Made by a program: the position numbers and the translations under genes. This document shows, one piece after another, positions 2,478 through 44,421 of a stretch of 51,177 nt of DNA (position 1 is the stretch's first letter; each line of letters opens with the position of its first letter). Source of the stretch: a virus; the IMG/VR virus record IMGVR_UViG_3300045282_000148, positions 1-51,177 of that record, one strand, 5' to 3'. The notes under the pieces are model-generated. The model had not been told where the DNA came from and searched no databases. It worked only from the letters and a program-made list of their open reading frames with translations.

Positions 2478-2959
2478 TGCTTCACAAGTTCCCGCCTCCG
2501 CCATGGCCCGACCGCATTGTCTGCGAGGTCTGCGGTCACAAGGTCGCGCCGAACACGCTAGACTTCGATCCGGCTAAGGTTGATCCTGAATGCGGTGAGG
2601 GACCGAAGCCGGAGCCGCCGTGCGAGGGTGCGTGTCCGGGCGAGGAGTACATGATTCTGACCAATACGCTCGGTTTGCGCGCTAGCCTTGGCTGCGACTG
2701 TCCGAAGATCAAGGCGGACATGGATCGCTTGAAAATCGAAGGCTGTATCGCACAGCGAGAAGAGTTAATCGCTCGGCTGCAAAAGAACTACGCGGCTCAT
2801 TTTAGCTACAAGGACTTATTCGCCGCTGCACGCCGAGCCAAGAAGCGCGAAGCGTTCAAGCTGCTTCGGAAGCTGCGGAGGCTCAATCCAAACGCGGCTA
2901 TCGAACGGCTTTTCGATTTGGCCATAGAGAAAGCCGTTAATGATCGGCCGGCGTCTTGA
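2477..2959 (+). CDS. Zinc-binding-like protein with conserved C-terminal Cys motif
   Basis: In the 160-aa product, the N-terminus shows CEVCGHK, a half zinc finger. A Pro/Glu-rich Cys segment (PCEGACPG) follows. The middle reads GCDCPKIKADMDRLKIEGC, a CxC-then-GC arrangement I associate with small phage or planctomycete proteins that end glycosyltransferase- or tail-linked genes. The C-terminal half is basic and helical. The function is unknown. It is the last plus-strand gene of the tail operon and overlaps by 23 bases the convergent gene at 2937-3134. Confidence 0.55.
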   Translation: MLHKFPPPPWPDRIVCEVCGHKVAPNTLDFDPAKVDPECGEGPKPEPPCEGACPGEEYMILTNTLGLRASLGCDCPKIKADMDRLKIEGCIAQREELIARLQKNYAAHFSYKDLFAAARRAKKREAFKLLRKLRRLNPNAAIERLFDLAIEKAVNDRPAS

Positions 2960-3134
2960 CGTTGCCGGCATTCTGACCCGGTTTGAGGGGTTGCGCTATC
3001 TTCCCGGTGTTTTCCAAATCCCATTGGATAATGCCCATCACCACAGCGGGAATGACGAAAAACCCCAGTACGAGCCAGATCACAGCACTATTCAAGAACT
3101 CGCCCACATCGGTCTTAATTGGTTCATTCCTCAT
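2937..3134 (-). CDS. Small single-span membrane protein
   Basis: The 65-aa protein has one hydrophobic helix at about residues 16-38 (VIWLVLGFFVIPAVVMGIIQW) and a polar C-terminal tail. The ATG at 3134 was chosen because AGGAG lies 8 bases upstream (3143-3147), while the alternative ATG at 3139 runs straight into a stop. It lies behind its own promoter and a structured leader (3148-3234), so it is regulated separately from the neighbouring operons. A holin or superinfection-exclusion role is possible but unsupported. Confidence 0.65.
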   Translation of the reverse strand: MRNEPIKTDVGEFLNSAVIWLVLGFFVIPAVVMGIIQWDLENTGKIAQPLKPGQNAGNVKTPADH

Positions 3135-3147
3135 GGCATGGTCTCCT

Positions 3148-3234
3148 AAAAAGCCCCCGGCTCGCGCCGACTTCGGCTGTCACGCTGAAAGATGACGCAA
3201 GCGCGGGGGCGTGAATTGGGATAGCGTGACAGCC
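3148..3234 (-). ncRNA. Structured leader RNA A: attenuator-like pseudoknot
   Basis: Read on the minus strand. P1 is a perfect 12-bp stem (GGCTGTCACGCT, 3234-3223, with AGCGTGACAGCC, 3186-3175). Its 36-nt loop holds the 5' arm of P2 (3210-3194). This pairs with 3168-3153 by 7 bp, one bulge and 9 bp including two G-U pairs. P2 is followed at once by TTTTT (3152-3148), then the Shine-Dalgarno AGGAG and the ATG. P2 plus the T-run is a credible intrinsic terminator. P1 and P2 overlap in pseudoknot order. Leaders B (16652) and C (40865) share this arrangement. Confidence 0.6.
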
Positions 3235-3244
3235 AACGCCCTTC

Positions 3245-3273
3245 AGCATAGGGCAGCTCTATAGCGATTGCAA
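3245..3273 (-). promoter_or_regulatory. Minus-strand promoter for leader A and the small membrane gene
   Basis: On the minus strand there is TTGCAA (3273-3268), a 17-bp spacer and TATGCT (3250-3245). Transcription would begin about 6-8 nt before P1 of leader A. TTGCAA is its own reverse complement and also serves as the -35 box of the divergent promoter at 3268-3296. Confidence 0.5.
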
Positions 3274-3296
3274 GCTGAACGGGGGTACAGTAGACT
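3268..3296 (+). promoter_or_regulatory. Plus-strand promoter with leaderless geometry (alpha-CTD gene)
   Basis: TTGCAA (3268-3273), a 17-bp spacer and TAGACT (3291-3296) precede the ATG at 3304 by only 7 nt, so the predicted transcription start coincides with the start codon. The bases before the ATG (caggcATGAGC) match a motif shared with the other leaderless-type promoters in this genome. Confidence 0.55.
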
Positions 3297-3303
3297 TTCA
3301 GGC

Positions 3304-3627
3304 ATGAGCGATTTGAACGCATTAGCCGATTTGCTCGAAAGAGCAGCCAAGGCACTCCGCGAGTGCCAGCGACTTCTTCCCAAAGAACAAAAAGAGGACC
3401 AATCTCTCATTCTTAGAACTGAAATCAGCGGAAGGCTGTTTAATGTTTTAAGACATGCCGGGATCAACACTTGGGAGCAGGCGGCATCGTACAGTGAGGA
3501 TGATTTTCTTTCTGCAAAGAATGTCGGCGAGTGCACCGTTCGTGAACTTGCTAAACGTCTGTGCGAAAGAGGTCTTCAATTCGCATCTTTGCCTGAATCC
3601 CCGTGTCGATTACCTACTATCGGCTAA
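3304..3627 (+). CDS. Stand-alone RNA polymerase alpha-CTD-like protein
   Basis: The 107-aa product begins with an amphipathic helical N-terminus (residues 1-40), followed by a domain closely resembling the C-terminal domain of bacterial RNA polymerase alpha. Matched blocks include RLFNVLRHAGINTWEQ and KNVGECTVREL, then ERGL. Against E. coli alpha-CTD, the DNA-contact positions R265, N268, G296 and E302 are kept, while K298 is replaced by Cys. It lacks the alpha N-terminal dimerisation domain. It probably binds UP-element-like DNA or transcription factors and modulates host RNA polymerase. The ATG sits 7 nt after its -10 box. Its stop overlaps the convergent terminase by 4 bases. Confidence 0.75.
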   Translation: MSDLNALADLLERAAKALRECQRLLPKEQKEDQSLILRTEISGRLFNVLRHAGINTWEQAASYSEDDFLSAKNVGECTVRELAKRLCERGLQFASLPESPCRLPTIG

Positions 3628-4814
3628 GCTGCGGTCGAGTGGATGAGGCTATCGAGGGCCATGCTCCAAGCATCGAGACAGTCATCATGCGTCAATGTGC
3701 TTGGGAAATCGCGCCCCTCTCGGATCAACTCCCAGCCACCTTCATTGGCCAGAACCTTCACCAGCTTTTGATGCAATGGTGCAGCAAGGCGTTGAATCCT
3801 CGTGGTCTTATGCTCGTGGAGCTTCACTGGAACGAGCTTTGGCATTCCACCTTCGGGCCACATGCTGCGGAAAGAATCAGCGGTCCACAGCGCCATGCCG
3901 CTACAGTCGACGACGAGCATTTCAGGTCGATAACGATCCGACAATTTCTTTACATGCTCAAGTAGCTTCGGTCCAGACGTTCTCAGGGCTTCCACGTGAA
4001 GGTATTGTTTGTGATTCGACCAACCGAGCATGACAATGCCCTGATAATCGCTGGCCATATTTCCTTCCGATAGATCAACCGCCAGAGCCGAGCGCTGATA
4101 CGCCTCTGGAATCGAATCCACGAGCACGTCTTCCCAGTATTCTGCGGGCCAGATAGCATCCGCCGAGGCGACAAACTCGCCCATGTATTCCTGACGCCAA
4201 GCACTTTCGTTGTAAGGCGTCCGCTTGGCCCTGACTTCTTCTTCCGTAATTGTAGGGTTTACCCATGTCGGGTAATGCAAATGAAGCCATTCTGGATCGT
4301 TCTTTGTCGCTTGATAAAGGTCATGCAACCAGTTTATCCCGTTAGGGGTGCTCGCCAGCACAGCCCAGCCGCGTTTATCCATTAACGCCGGACTTAAATC
4401 TTGCTCCCACACGCTTCTCTTCACGAACGCCGCCTCGTCAATCACCAATCCGCTCAGACCGCGGCCGCGGAGCGATTTATCGCCGGCTGCCGAAAGGTAT
4501 GTGATCCGACTCCCGTTCGGCAGGTAGAACGTGTTTTCACTCTTGCGAAACAGCACGTCATGCCGGTGTCCAAGCACCTCATGCATGGTGTCTATTCCCA
4601 CGCCGATCTGGATGGCTGTCGGGCCGATCCACCAGTAAATGCCCGGCCGCTGCCAGGCGCGGGCTAGGACGCTCATTGTGGCCCCCTGCGTCTTTCCAGA
4701 GCGGCGACCAGCGATGCAAATCGTTCTCGGCCTGTCGGTCAGAATCAATTCCGCCTGATGGTCCCAAGGCGAGATTGCCAAGTCAGTTGGATTCAGCGGT
4801 GGTGTCGATGCCAT
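3624..4814 (-). CDS. terL: Terminase large subunit (DNA-packaging ATPase/nuclease)
   Basis: In the 396-aa product, the ATPase domain shows Walker A GRRSGKT (residues 36-42), Walker B GLVIDEAAF (D126/E127) and the ASTP coupling motif. The nuclease domain shows spaced acidic motifs LAVDLSEG, MLVVDCSG and THDDCLDAWSMA. It translocates and cuts concatemeric DNA at the portal vertex. It is short for the family but has both domains. It overlaps the presumptive small subunit by 32 bases. It lies on the minus strand at the end of the fibre operon, about 16.6 kb by the circle from the portal gene. Confidence 0.95.
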   Translation of the reverse strand: MASTPPLNPTDLAISPWDHQAELILTDRPRTICIAGRRSGKTQGATMSVLARAWQRPGIYWWIGPTAIQIGVGIDTMHEVLGHRHDVLFRKSENTFYLPNGSRITYLSAAGDKSLRGRGLSGLVIDEAAFVKRSVWEQDLSPALMDKRGWAVLASTPNGINWLHDLYQATKNDPEWLHLHYPTWVNPTITEEEVRAKRTPYNESAWRQEYMGEFVASADAIWPAEYWEDVLVDSIPEAYQRSALAVDLSEGNMASDYQGIVMLGWSNHKQYLHVEALRTSGPKLLEHVKKLSDRYRPEMLVVDCSGMALWTADSFRSMWPEGGMPKLVPVKLHEHKTTRIQRLAAPLHQKLVKVLANEGGWELIREGRDFPSTLTHDDCLDAWSMALDSLIHSTAA

Positions 4815-16824: not shown

Positions 16825-17589
16825 ATGGCTAATCAAGCCTACGAGTACCATCCGCTCGCCAAGAAGTTCCCCAGGATGGCCCCCGATGTATTCAAGGCGT
16901 TCTGCGCCGACATTAGGGAACGCGGCCTAGATAAGCCGATCGAATTGCTCGACGGGATGATCTTCGACGGCCGGCATCGCTACGAAGCGTGTCTGCAAGA
17001 GGGCGTTGAGCCGCGATTTGTTGAGCTTGCCGACGGTACCGACGGCGAAGGTTATGTCCGAGCCGTCAACGTGCTAAGGCGGCATCTGAGTCAGGACGAT
17101 ATTGCGGCGTGGCTTGTCGATAAACGCAACGGCCAGAAAGAGTTAGAGCAAGGTGGGCAAAAAGTGCCCACCCCATCTAACAGACAATTAGCCCGCGATG
17201 CAGGAATTCACAAGACGGCAGTCGATGCGGCGGATGCTGTTGCGAAAAAAGCATCTCCGGAACTGAAAGCGGCTGTCGAATCTGGCGAAGTTAAGCCCCG
17301 CGATGCCGCGAAGATCGTCAACAAATCTCCGACTGTGCAACGCAAGGCCGTTGAGCGTGTCAAGAAGGGCGAAGCCAAGACGGTGAAGGAAGCCGTCTCC
17401 GGCAAAAAGGGAAAGCCGGTCGCTCCGGCCTTCGCTCCGTTTAAGGAGATCGACGCACTCTGCGGTAAAGCCCTGAATCGAATAGACCATCTTGCCGACA
17501 AGCATCCCGGAAAGTTTCACAAGCAAGCTATCGAGGCGCAAAAGCACGTCATGCAAGTCGTCAAGGATTGGTGGAGATCGGTTAAATGA
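16825..17589 (+). CDS. ParB-like nuclease/DNA-binding domain protein
   Basis: The 254-aa protein has a ParB/sulfiredoxin-like domain in its N-terminal ~90 residues (LDKPIELLDGMIFDGRHRYEAC; the DGRHR box is the nucleotide-binding signature), then RHLSQDDIAAW and an HTH-like segment (NRQLARDAGIHKTAVDAAD). The C-terminal half is Lys-rich. Such proteins bind DNA and some hydrolyse CTP; a role in gene regulation or replication is likelier than plasmid partition. Leader RNA B precedes it. Its stop overlaps the helicase start by 4 bases. Confidence 0.75.
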   Translation: MANQAYEYHPLAKKFPRMAPDVFKAFCADIRERGLDKPIELLDGMIFDGRHRYEACLQEGVEPRFVELADGTDGEGYVRAVNVLRRHLSQDDIAAWLVDKRNGQKELEQGGQKVPTPSNRQLARDAGIHKTAVDAADAVAKKASPELKAAVESGEVKPRDAAKIVNKSPTVQRKAVERVKKGEAKTVKEAVSGKKGKPVAPAFAPFKEIDALCGKALNRIDHLADKHPGKFHKQAIEAQKHVMQVVKDWWRSVK

Positions 17590-27714: not shown

Positions 27715-29397
27715 ATGCCACTCGACAAGACGCAGACGATTACCGTCTCGCTCTTTTTGCGGCCGATGACGCCCGTCGCGCCGCCGGTCGCTGGGGCGCC
27801 ACCAATGGACCCGGCTACGTTCGCCGCTCAGCATTCGGCTGACCCAGCGGACATCGACGCCATTCGTGCGTTTGCGAATGACAAAGGTCTGCAAGTCGTT
27901 GGCGTTCACCCGATCCAGAGAATCGTGAACGTCTCTGGGACGATCGAACAGCTCGAAGCTGCTTTCGGGGCCGATACAGAGCAGCGGCCGACCGCGAATG
28001 GCGAACACCGCTTTTTGGCTAGAGCAGCGCAGCCGATGCCGCACTTGGGCATCGTCAAGACGTTGGGATGGGAGTCGGCGCCGTTTGCGCAGCCGCACTT
28101 TCGCAGACGACGAAAGCACCCCACCGCAGCAGCCGTAGCCGTCGAACCGCACGCCATGAAGCCGCTTGGGCCGGTCAAGACGGCTCAAATGTACGGCGTC
28201 ACAACTCGGCCGGCGGGAACCTACCGGACCTGCCACGGCTCGATCCTCTGTCTTGGCGGCGGCTATACGTCTTCGGACGTAGCCGCAAGCTGCCAACTCA
28301 ACGGTATCCCGGTTCCGACAATCATTGATGAATCGGTCCTAGGGGCCGGCAATGCCCCTGGAAACGACGCCGACGTGGAGTTGATGCTGGATATCGTTCA
28401 GATGGCCGGGGCTTACTTCGCTCGCACTGGGCAGCATATGACGATCCACGTCATTTTCTGTCCGAACACCGATGCAGGTTACGTCACCGGGAGCGGCTAC
28501 GGAGCGCATATTACGAACGTGGCGACGGAATCAAGCTCATGGGGCAGTTCCGAGGATAATTGGGCACAATCGGCTGGCCAGTTTGATTCGACGGCCAAAG
28601 GCTCAGTTACGCTCGGCGTCACGTATGTCGCAGCCTCGGGCGACGGTGGGGCGACAGACGGCACCGGTGGCCTGATTGTCGACTTCCCGGCGGCATCGCC
28701 CTACGTTCTCGGCATGGGCGGTACGAACCTATCGGACGCTGGCGAAGTAGTCTGGAACGATCCGCAAGGCGGTTCCGGCGGCGGCGGTATCTCTGGCGTC
28801 GAGACTCCGAAGCCGCCTTGGCAAAGCGACTACCCGACGGCTGGTGGTCGGTGTGTGCCTGATCTGGCGGCGAACTCAGCCCCGGCTACTTGTGGGACAA
28901 TCGTCGTACAAGGTCAACACATGGACATCGGCGGAACAAGCGCCGCCGCTCCGTTTATGGCTGGTATCCTATGTGCCCTGTGCGAGGAACTGCCGCACAA
29001 CATCGGGTATCTCAATCCTCTTTTGGAGACAATGCCGGCGACGTGCTTTGAGGACATTATCAAGGGCGATAATGGAGGTTTTAGCGCGAAGCCCGGTCCG
29101 GATATGTGTACCGGCCGCGGCAGCCCGAAACCGCTGGCGATGCTCGCGGCCTTGAAAGGCACGGCACCGCCTCCCGTCATTCCACCGCCGGTAACTCCTC
29201 CGCCCGTGACGCCCCCGCCCCCGATTACACCGCCGCCGACCGACATGACGGTCGCGCAGTTCCAAGCCAATCTCCGCGCGAGTGCCCGCCGAAAATTCAC
29301 AGCGGACCTCAAAACCGAGAGCCATTTAGAGCGCTGGTCGAATGCCTATTACGCGCTGTTTACAGACAACCTAATCGCGTCCGAGCCGATCGCATGA
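27715..29397 (+). CDS. Sedolisin-family serine-carboxyl peptidase (MEROPS S53)
   Basis: The 560-aa protein begins with a pro-kumamolisin-like activation domain (residues ~5-125; TITVSLFLRPM; VSGTIEQLEAAFG). The catalytic domain keeps the family's set: E222 and D226 (VELMLD), D253 (PNTDAGY) and S409 in GGTSAAAP. TGRGSP near the end matches the calcium-site region. A Pro-rich linker (about 480-505, PPVTPPP) joins a ~50-aa C-terminal helical domain. S53 peptidases are acid endopeptidases, usually secreted; no signal peptide is visible here. It sits beside spanin-like genes and could degrade host envelope protein. Confidence 0.9.
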   Translation: MPLDKTQTITVSLFLRPMTPVAPPVAGAPPMDPATFAAQHSADPADIDAIRAFANDKGLQVVGVHPIQRIVNVSGTIEQLEAAFGADTEQRPTANGEHRFLARAAQPMPHLGIVKTLGWESAPFAQPHFRRRRKHPTAAAVAVEPHAMKPLGPVKTAQMYGVTTRPAGTYRTCHGSILCLGGGYTSSDVAASCQLNGIPVPTIIDESVLGAGNAPGNDADVELMLDIVQMAGAYFARTGQHMTIHVIFCPNTDAGYVTGSGYGAHITNVATESSSWGSSEDNWAQSAGQFDSTAKGSVTLGVTYVAASGDGGATDGTGGLIVDFPAASPYVLGMGGTNLSDAGEVVWNDPQGGSGGGGISGVETPKPPWQSDYPTAGGRCVPDLAANSAPATCGTIVVQGQHMDIGGTSAAAPFMAGILCALCEELPHNIGYLNPLLETMPATCFEDIIKGDNGGFSAKPGPDMCTGRGSPKPLAMLAALKGTAPPPVIPPPVTPPPVTPPPPITPPPTDMTVAQFQANLRASARRKFTADLKTESHLERWSNAYYALFTDNLIASEPIA

Positions 29398-39992: not shown

Positions 39993-40847
39993 CTACCAGA
40001 CAAGCTTTTTGGTTTTCTTTCCCTTGTTGAGCGCGGCAACAATGCCTTTGGCGGATATTATTTCTCCGCCTTTCCCAAGTTCTGCCTTGAGTTGTCTGAT
40101 AGCTCGGTCGAGTTCATCTTGCGTAAGCCTCGCAAATGTATCCGCAAATTCCGTGAGTATGTCGCGCCCATTGTAGTGCCGTACAAGCGTGAATAATCCA
40201 CGGAAGACGGTACCGGATATCGGCTTTTCATTCGCCATTTGAAGCGAAAGCCCAATGAGTCTCTTTGCCAATTCGCTGTCTTCTTCAACACATCGTTGAA
40301 TCGTATGCACGCACTTCAATTGTTGAGAGGTCGTCACGTTTTTCTGAACCGTGATACCGAATTCAGAGAGCAACGATGCCGTTCTACAGGCTCCCGGCTC
40401 TTCCGCGACGGATGCAGCACGAAACGTATCAAGGGAATTAATTCGATGTGACATTCGCGCTCCAGCAATGAACGCTCTGGCCTCATCGGAAAGTTCGGCG
40501 AGTTGGAAAACCATCGAGGGCAATTGAGAAATATCTGACCGATAAAAAGCCGCTCGGACTCGATGTCCACCATCGAATACCCAAAGAGAGAGGTCCGGTC
40601 GTTCGGCAACTTTTATGACTCCAAATAGAGTCCAATCCCATTCGGCCGCGATAGTTCGCACCGCAGTTTCCGATACCTTTCCGCGTTGATAGCGGTCATC
40701 GAGATTTAGATCGGACTTACTGATTAACCGAAATTCTCCAGGACTCGTTGGCCGTGCCCAACGATACTTATCCGCTTTGTCGATTGCTGCTCTACCGCCT
40801 GGCATTGGCGAGAGACTTCTATCGCGCTTGTCAAGTAAATTGGACAT
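39993..40847 (-). CDS. ParB-like domain protein
   Basis: The 284-aa protein has residues ~42-110 carrying a ParB/DUF6551-like signature: LNLDDRYQRGKVSE, EWDWTLFGVIKVAERPD, and the WVFDGGHRVRAAF box. The C-terminal half is helical. Leader RNA C and a dedicated promoter precede it, so it is a separately regulated moron-type gene on the opposite strand within the head operon. Possible regulator or nuclease. Confidence 0.75.
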   Translation of the reverse strand: MSNLLDKRDRSLSPMPGGRAAIDKADKYRWARPTSPGEFRLISKSDLNLDDRYQRGKVSETAVRTIAAEWDWTLFGVIKVAERPDLSLWVFDGGHRVRAAFYRSDISQLPSMVFQLAELSDEARAFIAGARMSHRINSLDTFRAASVAEEPGACRTASLLSEFGITVQKNVTTSQQLKCVHTIQRCVEEDSELAKRLIGLSLQMANEKPISGTVFRGLFTLVRHYNGRDILTEFADTFARLTQDELDRAIRQLKAELGKGGEIISAKGIVAALNKGKKTKKLVW

Positions 40848-43002: not shown

Positions 43003-44421
43003 ATGCCAACCTTCCGAGAAAAGGACATTGAACAGCTCGTCACTAAGTGCGAATACGAGCGCATCATAAGCGGCGACCCGCGACCAGCCGCGGAAATCGC
43101 TTGTGCCAGAATCAGCGAGCAGCTCGGTAGCGGCGAACTAAGCTGGACGGATTTACCTCCTGTTTCTCGAATTGCGCGGTATCTCGTTCGCGACAAGGCG
43201 ACAGGGCGACCGCTGGCGATTCAGGATTCCAAAGTCTCTTCCGATATGGTGTATCTAAAGAACATCGGGGAATCCTACGATGATCTTTCCAGGCGGTATC
43301 GTAATCCAGAAACGGGACTGATCGACGGATTTGTCAGTGAGCAAACGTCGCAACTCATCAAAGAGGAATCGACCTCGACGGCCACGACGATGGGCAGTTT
43401 CATGGCCCTCACGTCGCAACTGTTTTTCAATGCCCTCATCGGCGCTTACGAGCACGCTGAGATGAACGTCGCCCGTACGTTCCGCAATATCCCCTCGACG
43501 TTCCTGCGTGGCGAGAAGTTCGCTGGCGTCGGTGGCCTGGAAAAGATTCTCCAAGGCACGCCCGAGGGCCGAGATCTTCCGCACTTGACCGCGACCGAAG
43601 ATTACGTCGATACCCCGGCGCAACGCAAGGTCGGTGCGATCATCGACATCTCTTGGGAATTGTCGGTCAGTGACCATTCCGGCGAGATTCTCCGACGTTA
43701 CGAATCGCTCGGCAAGGCCGTAGCCGTCACCCGTGAAATGGAAGCCGTCGGCACCTTGACCGACACCAACCCGAACGACGGAACCGCCGGATACAAGCGT
43801 ACCCGCTACAACTGGAAGGGCACGCAATACGCGACTTACGAAAGCGCGGCCGGAACGGATTGGATCAATCTCCTCACCAGTTCGTCCAGTTCGACCTATT
43901 GGGGCGCCAACCCGCTGGTTGACCAGAACAGCATCAACGGCGCCTATGTCACGGCCACTAAGATTTGCGATCCGTGGACCGGACTGCCGATCGGCTACGG
44001 TCAAGGGCCGTGGAAATTGTTTTGCTCGCCTGATCTGAAGTTCACCGCTGATCGAATTGCTCGAACCGTCGAATACGTCACCGTCGGCGGAACGGCAGCG
44101 ACAACGAACTACGCCCCGCAACTGCATACCAATATCGGGACGGTCATTCCGTTCGAGGTCATCGCCTCGGCCTATATCGGCGCCTTGTGCGATCTCGCGG
44201 CCGCGGCCAGCAATACGAACATCCTCCGCACGACCTGGTGGATCGGCAAGCCGGAAGAGGCGTTCTCGTGGCAGACCGCGCAGGAGTTGGTCAATCAGGA
44301 GGCCATTCCCGGCGCCGGGGATATGTTTAACAGAGTTCTTGAGAAACAAACCAGGTGTTTCGACTGCAAGACCGCGTATGTGTTAAACCCAAGATACGTT
44401 ATACAGTGTATGGCTTCTTGA
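43003..44421 (+). CDS. Major capsid protein
   Basis: The 472-aa size, position after the protease/scaffold and composition fit an HK97-fold major capsid protein. The N-terminal ~120 residues are helical, like a delta or scaffold-interacting domain. Later come FFNALIGAYEHAEMNVARTF and the IDISWELSVSDHSGEIL and FEVIASAYIGALC regions, typical of capsid axial domains. The last residues (FDCKTAYVLNPRYVIQCMAS) include two Cys. Its stop overlaps by 23 bases the end of the inserted HNH gene. Confidence 0.75.
   Translation: MPTFREKDIEQLVTKCEYERIISGDPRPAAEIACARISEQLGSGELSWTDLPPVSRIARYLVRDKATGRPLAIQDSKVSSDMVYLKNIGESYDDLSRRYRNPETGLIDGFVSEQTSQLIKEESTSTATTMGSFMALTSQLFFNALIGAYEHAEMNVARTFRNIPSTFLRGEKFAGVGGLEKILQGTPEGRDLPHLTATEDYVDTPAQRKVGAIIDISWELSVSDHSGEILRRYESLGKAVAVTREMEAVGTLTDTNPNDGTAGYKRTRYNWKGTQYATYESAAGTDWINLLTSSSSSTYWGANPLVDQNSINGAYVTATKICDPWTGLPIGYGQGPWKLFCSPDLKFTADRIARTVEYVTVGGTAATTNYAPQLHTNIGTVIPFEVIASAYIGALCDLAAAASNTNILRTTWWIGKPEEAFSWQTAQELVNQEAIPGAGDMFNRVLEKQTRCFDCKTAYVLNPRYVIQCMAS

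Follow-up and report, generated by a model that had tools for sequence, protein, structure and literature searches.

A free-standing RNA polymerase alpha C-terminal domain encoded in an IMG/VR virus record

What would a virus do with the C-terminal domain of the bacterial RNA polymerase alpha subunit (alpha-CTD) when the rest of the subunit is missing? This question is raised by a short open reading frame (ORF) at positions 3304-3627 of an IMG/VR virus. The window, that is, the whole stretch of DNA analyzed here, has 51,177 bases and spans the entire record, the viral gene content of which includes terminase, portal, capsid-like, helicase, Mgm101-like and RusA genes. No match to the capsid-like protein (43003-44421) was found in the phage collection, and two separate ParB-like proteins are encoded at 16825-17589 (+) and 39993-40847 (-).

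Identity and predicted fold of the 107-aa protein

The ORF and the parts of its product discussed in this section are as follows.

3304-3627 (+): stand-alone alpha-CTD protein of 107 aa, ATG to TAA, with a PF03118 match and a predicted alpha-CTD fold
3307-3372 (+): predicted amphipathic N-terminal helix (codons 2-23) in place of the alpha N-terminal domain (alpha-NTD), from the AlphaFold2 model and the hydrophobic moment
3382-3561 (+): alpha-CTD matched region with two helix-hairpin-helix motifs, as placed by PF03118

The Pfam profile PF03118 (RNA_pol_A_CTD) matches residues 27-86 with 36 bits (E=6e-9), above its curated cut-off of 23.8 bits, and matches only once in the entire record. The best solved relatives of the protein are RNA polymerase alpha subunits (the leading ones with E from 1e-8 to 5e-7), whereas the NCBI RpoA models match in their C-terminal part only, with 18-38 bits vs cut-offs of 228-523, and the protein has no alpha-NTD. 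No PHROG family matches the protein. A chance reading frame would not yield such scores with PF03118 and with alpha subunits. The ORF is a free-standing alpha-CTD, and its product belongs to the alpha-CTD domain family and is not an alpha subunit (RpoA). This bears out the identity proposed in an earlier note on this DNA, and without the alpha-NTD, as that note also held, assembly of the protein as a normal alpha subunit is impossible.

The AlphaFold2 model, built from an input of two sequences, is of moderate quality (mean pLDDT 74, pTM 0.50) and consists of a helix at residues 2-23, a loose linker, and helices at residues 43-51, 57-61, 65-69 and 76-88. All of the Foldseek PDB matches listed are RNA polymerase alpha chains or RNA polymerase complex entries. 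With VIA-align, the top alpha-CTD chains show Z from 9.5 to 8.6 (1z3e at 30% identity), and the DNA-bound alpha-CTD structures 1lb2 and 9zum (Z 9.0 each) are among the top matches. The check on the fold that the earlier note had suggested therefore comes out on the side of alpha-CTD and not of an unrelated fold. It is also evident that RAD51 and Dmc1 chains match at their N-terminal ends (Z 7-8, about 8 and below), as would be expected if the protein were a generic helix-hairpin-helix DNA-binding protein unlinked to RNA polymerase, acting for example in recombination or, near the terminase, in DNA packaging. The gene does adjoin the terminase gene, and Mycobacterium phage Marley1013 gp51 couples an alpha-CTD with an HNH-like nuclease region; however, the sequence matches are specifically to RNA polymerase alpha and the packaging genes lie on the other strand. 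We regard such a generic function as unlikely.

The N-terminal helix has a pLDDT of about 75-86 along most of its length, and its hydrophobic moment of 0.585 is equalled by 0.3% of shuffles. An amphipathic helix of this kind, as modelled, fits with a possible pairing of the protein. In a cyanobacterial alpha-CTD, the helix-hairpin-helix part is matched by residues 4-35 (window 3313-3408) better than by 300 of 300 shuffles, off-register by 50 residues, which is perhaps a degenerate partial repeat or chance. The same residues also resemble, weakly and in register, the linker of alpha subunits from Bacillota (z up to 3.2; post hoc). We do not claim an origin from the end of a Bacillota RpoA plus its linker, since, for the sequences compared with the protein in full, a different register gives higher scores.

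Residues at the DNA-contact and sigma-facing positions

The alignment of the protein with E. coli alpha has a constant offset of 221 and is gapless through the key region, which contains two stretches of interest.

3433-3444 (+): codons 44-47, with the equivalents R44 (R265) and N47 (N268)
3526-3546 (+): codons 75-81, from G75 (G296) to E81 (E302), including C77 (K298) and T78 (S299)

The equivalents of R265, N268, G296 and E302 are R44, N47, G75 and E81, and on this point the earlier note was exact. We take R261 and G292 of the Bacillus subtilis alpha-CTD to be the equivalents of R265 and G296. Alanine replacement is not possible at either of these B. subtilis residues (PMC4495994), and R265 is crucial to UP-element contact (PMC2988021). 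Three other DNA-side positions are altered, C269 to V48, K298 to C77 and S299 to T78 (a conservative change), and E76 is found at the position of K297. The C269, K298 and S299 positions are also variable in other phage members and do not define the PF03118 family; all seven DNA-contact residues (R265, N268, G296, E302, C269, K298 and S299) are usual in PF03118 but not required by the profile. With C and V replacing the K298 and C269 equivalents, DNA binding cannot be assumed, and the DNA affinity may be low given C77, V48 and E76 at the K298, C269 and K297 positions. The loss of the K298 equivalent also weakens a simple UP-element reading, one of three possible roles (decoy, UP-element reader or bridge) put forward in the earlier note and not told apart by the present computations.

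The E261 position is kept as E40, and the D259 position is R38. We take E261 of alpha to be part of the sigma-facing patch. The retained E40 is in favor of the protein being a competitor or decoy, in which the free domain would compete with the host alpha-CTD for UP elements, activators or sigma region 4 and damp host transcription without aiding phage promoters. Host alpha-CTD contacts are indeed already phage targets, as T4 Alt and ModA modify Arg265 of the host alpha-CTD (PMC2988021) and Staphylococcus aureus phage G1 gp67 disrupts the contact of alpha-CTD with UP elements (PMC4495994). A competitor would probably have to be abundant, yet the gene has only a weak promoter-like sequence and no visible Shine-Dalgarno motif, and R38 at the D259 position speaks against it as well; we thus consider a decoy unlikely.

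Genome position and probable origin of the gene

The ORF sits in a gap between two minus-strand genes, with the following features around it.

2937-3134 (-): 65-aa membrane-protein-like ORF with a Shine-Dalgarno motif, on the other flank of the alpha-CTD gene
3151-3210 (-): strong, terminator-like hairpin for minus-strand transcripts, then TTTTT (-39.5 kcal/mol, z -5.0)
3267-3296 (+): weak promoter-like TTGCAA-17-TAGACT, read from the sequence and under the consensus-scan threshold
3624-4814 (-): terminase large subunit, convergent, overlapping the stop of the ORF by 4 bases (phrog_2, E=4e-40)

The 65-aa ORF has no family match. The TTTTT of the hairpin is followed directly by the AGGAG of this ORF, and the terminator-like hairpin may act as a terminator or an attenuator. 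The terminase large subunit finds its best-covered matches in Thermus phages (phiFa, P23-45 group), with an identity of just 22-25%. The promoter-like sequence lies 7-8 nt ahead of the ATG of the alpha-CTD gene, and inspection of the sequence ahead of this ATG reveals no Shine-Dalgarno motif. The earlier note had envisaged leaderless promoters as targets of the protein, but these are not enriched in the record: TANNNT is found 5-8 nt upstream of one gene start vs 3.1 expected, in a count based on gene calls that favored Shine-Dalgarno starts and omitted ORF 3304-3627.

The composition of the gene is atypical, with a GC content of 47.8% (55.3±3.3% for predicted genes), a GC3 of 43.5% (63.3±5.2%; z about -3.8) and a negative codon score of -7.3. 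An alpha-CTD is found in none of the 13 virus records that share the helicase (39-47% identity); these are not close comparators, as the terminase is shared by only one of the 13 and three of them are fragmentary (5-11 kb). The GC3 and these records fit an accessory gene, only loosely shown because most comparators share the helicase and not the terminase and three are fragments. From its GC3, its strand and its absence from the helicase-related records, the gene looks acquired, and its source is probably a bacterium.

Scans of viral and genome contigs with the single protein revealed no close relative of it, so selection on the contact residues cannot be measured; alignment-based scans of contigs found one virus, IMG/VR 3300033463_000481. 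Scans with the terminase and the portal found no relatives of the virus. The identity to known proteins is about 20-41%, and among bacteria the best match found, 41% over about 70 residues, is to the second domain of a TPR protein from Planctomycetota. In a tree of 30 alpha-CTDs, the protein lies on a very long branch with no trustworthy placement. We also searched five genome sets, those of the phyla of Edaphobacter (Acidobacteriota; n=297), of a Planctomycetales genome (n=246) and of Bradyrhizobium (n=398) plus two further sets, and the matches read are RpoA or TPR-CTD proteins; three of the sets, which have no positive control, gave no match at E<=1e-6, and the genomes covered lie outside the Bacillota. 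Most of the tblastn "phage" matches appear to be complete host rpoA genes in phage-labelled records and were set aside. In four GenBank records labelled bacteriophage (L004, L005, L006 and L008), a full bacterial rpoA is confirmed by the reading frame, as is likely for others of the tblastn matches; L004 also carries ribosomal protein genes, and all four are host DNA within a phage collection.

The atypical GC3 and codon score would also fit a mere bystander, a recently captured bacterial gene fragment that is functionless and being lost, as would the further changes at DNA-contact positions and the Bacillota linker likeness of residues 4-35. That likeness, however, is post hoc and outscored in a different register, and past selection is suggested because the frame is intact and the key residues are kept despite only about 20-41% identity. 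A bystander is thus quite unlikely. Elsewhere in the record, an S53/kumamolisin-like serine protease with a pro-domain (PF00082, PF09286) is encoded at 27715-29397 (+); its nearest matches, at 34-39% identity, are mostly from Acidobacteriota and Rhodanobacter/Dyella, which is suggestive of acid soil and not decisive for the host.

Proposed role and comparison with other alpha-CTDs

We infer that the protein most likely binds DNA and modulates transcription, either in concert with the host alpha-CTD or in opposition to it. More specifically, and tentatively, we propose that this apparently acquired accessory phage gene supplies a free alpha-CTD that would act in paired form as a DNA-binding modulator of promoter use by host RNA polymerase. 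Residues R44, N47, G75 and E81 would mediate DNA binding by the two helix-hairpin-helix motifs of the alpha-CTD part (residues about 36-94), and pairing would fall to the amphipathic helix at the N-terminus, in place of the dimerization normally provided by the alpha-NTD. In this paired state the domain could be positioned upstream of certain promoters and alter their use by host RNA polymerase, either through an added alpha-CTD-like contact or through occupation of host alpha-CTD sites. A stronger form, in which a helix-dimerized surrogate alpha-CTD reads phage upstream elements and supplies contacts to host RNA polymerase in trans, is very unlikely; if true, transcription would be redirected without modifying the polymerase. 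As a small, intact example (107 aa), the modulator proposed here makes the role of loose alpha-CTDs easy to test.

The protein is not unique, as free or fused alpha-CTDs recur in unrelated phages and bacteria. It has in common with the C-terminal domain of RpoA the PF03118 domain, the fold and the ungapped R265, N268, G296 and E302 positions, whereas it lacks the alpha-NTD, has a 22-residue helix instead, and carries C, V and T at the K298, C269 and S299 positions. Among phages, Bacillus phage vB_BmeM-Goe8 gp5 (YP_009849950.1, annotated "RNA polymerase subunit alpha") likewise has an alpha-CTD at its C-terminal end and, as read from the sequence, keeps R, N, C, G, S and E at the DNA-contact positions; it differs in its length of 210 aa and in a ~150-aa N-terminal region before the alpha-CTD, which is partly common to phage SBSphiC. 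Microbacterium phage Mazun gp26 ("DNA binding protein") keeps the R265 and N268 equivalents in an alpha-CTD-like domain but is 141 aa long, with another N-terminal part of ~70 aa and A at the E302 position; its homologues in Morrill, Atraxi and TrippleS are also annotated "DNA binding protein". Rhodococcus phage Finch gp200 and Marley1013 gp51 are both above the PF03118 cut-off; in the former, the R265 position is Q and the C-terminus carries a long extension, and in the latter, the N268 position is Y and the HNH-like region is present. In Marley1013 gp51 (L003, 2980-3462), annotated hypothetical, the HNH endonuclease family matches lie behind the alpha-CTD. In the virus 3300033463_000481, a small protein begins with an alpha-CTD (30% identity over residues 41-100), which is much nearer to ordinary RpoA (PF03118 E 7e-23) and is followed by another C-terminal region.

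Similarly, modules outside RpoA are found in bacteria, with other N-terminal regions, in small proteins of Bradyrhizobium erythrophlei and in Planctomycetota TPR-CTD-CTD proteins, which bear two alpha-CTDs (the TPR label is read from the sequence). Five alpha-CTD matches other than rpoA occur in Bradyrhizobium erythrophlei, where the open frames are 109-160 aa long and one match is under the cut-off, and in a Bryobacterales (Acidobacteriota) protein a kinase-like region, so labelled from its sequence, precedes the alpha-CTD. The alpha-CTD thus behaves as a portable module, joined to different parts in Marley1013 gp51, Goe8 gp5 and Mazun gp26, and such proteins are annotated, for example, as "hypothetical protein" or "DNA binding protein"; in the limited library of literature searched, we found no paper on the function of stand-alone phage alpha-CTDs. 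Known phages attack or modify the alpha-CTD of their host, as T4 does with Alt and ModA and G1 with gp67, and a phage copy of the domain would be a different strategy.
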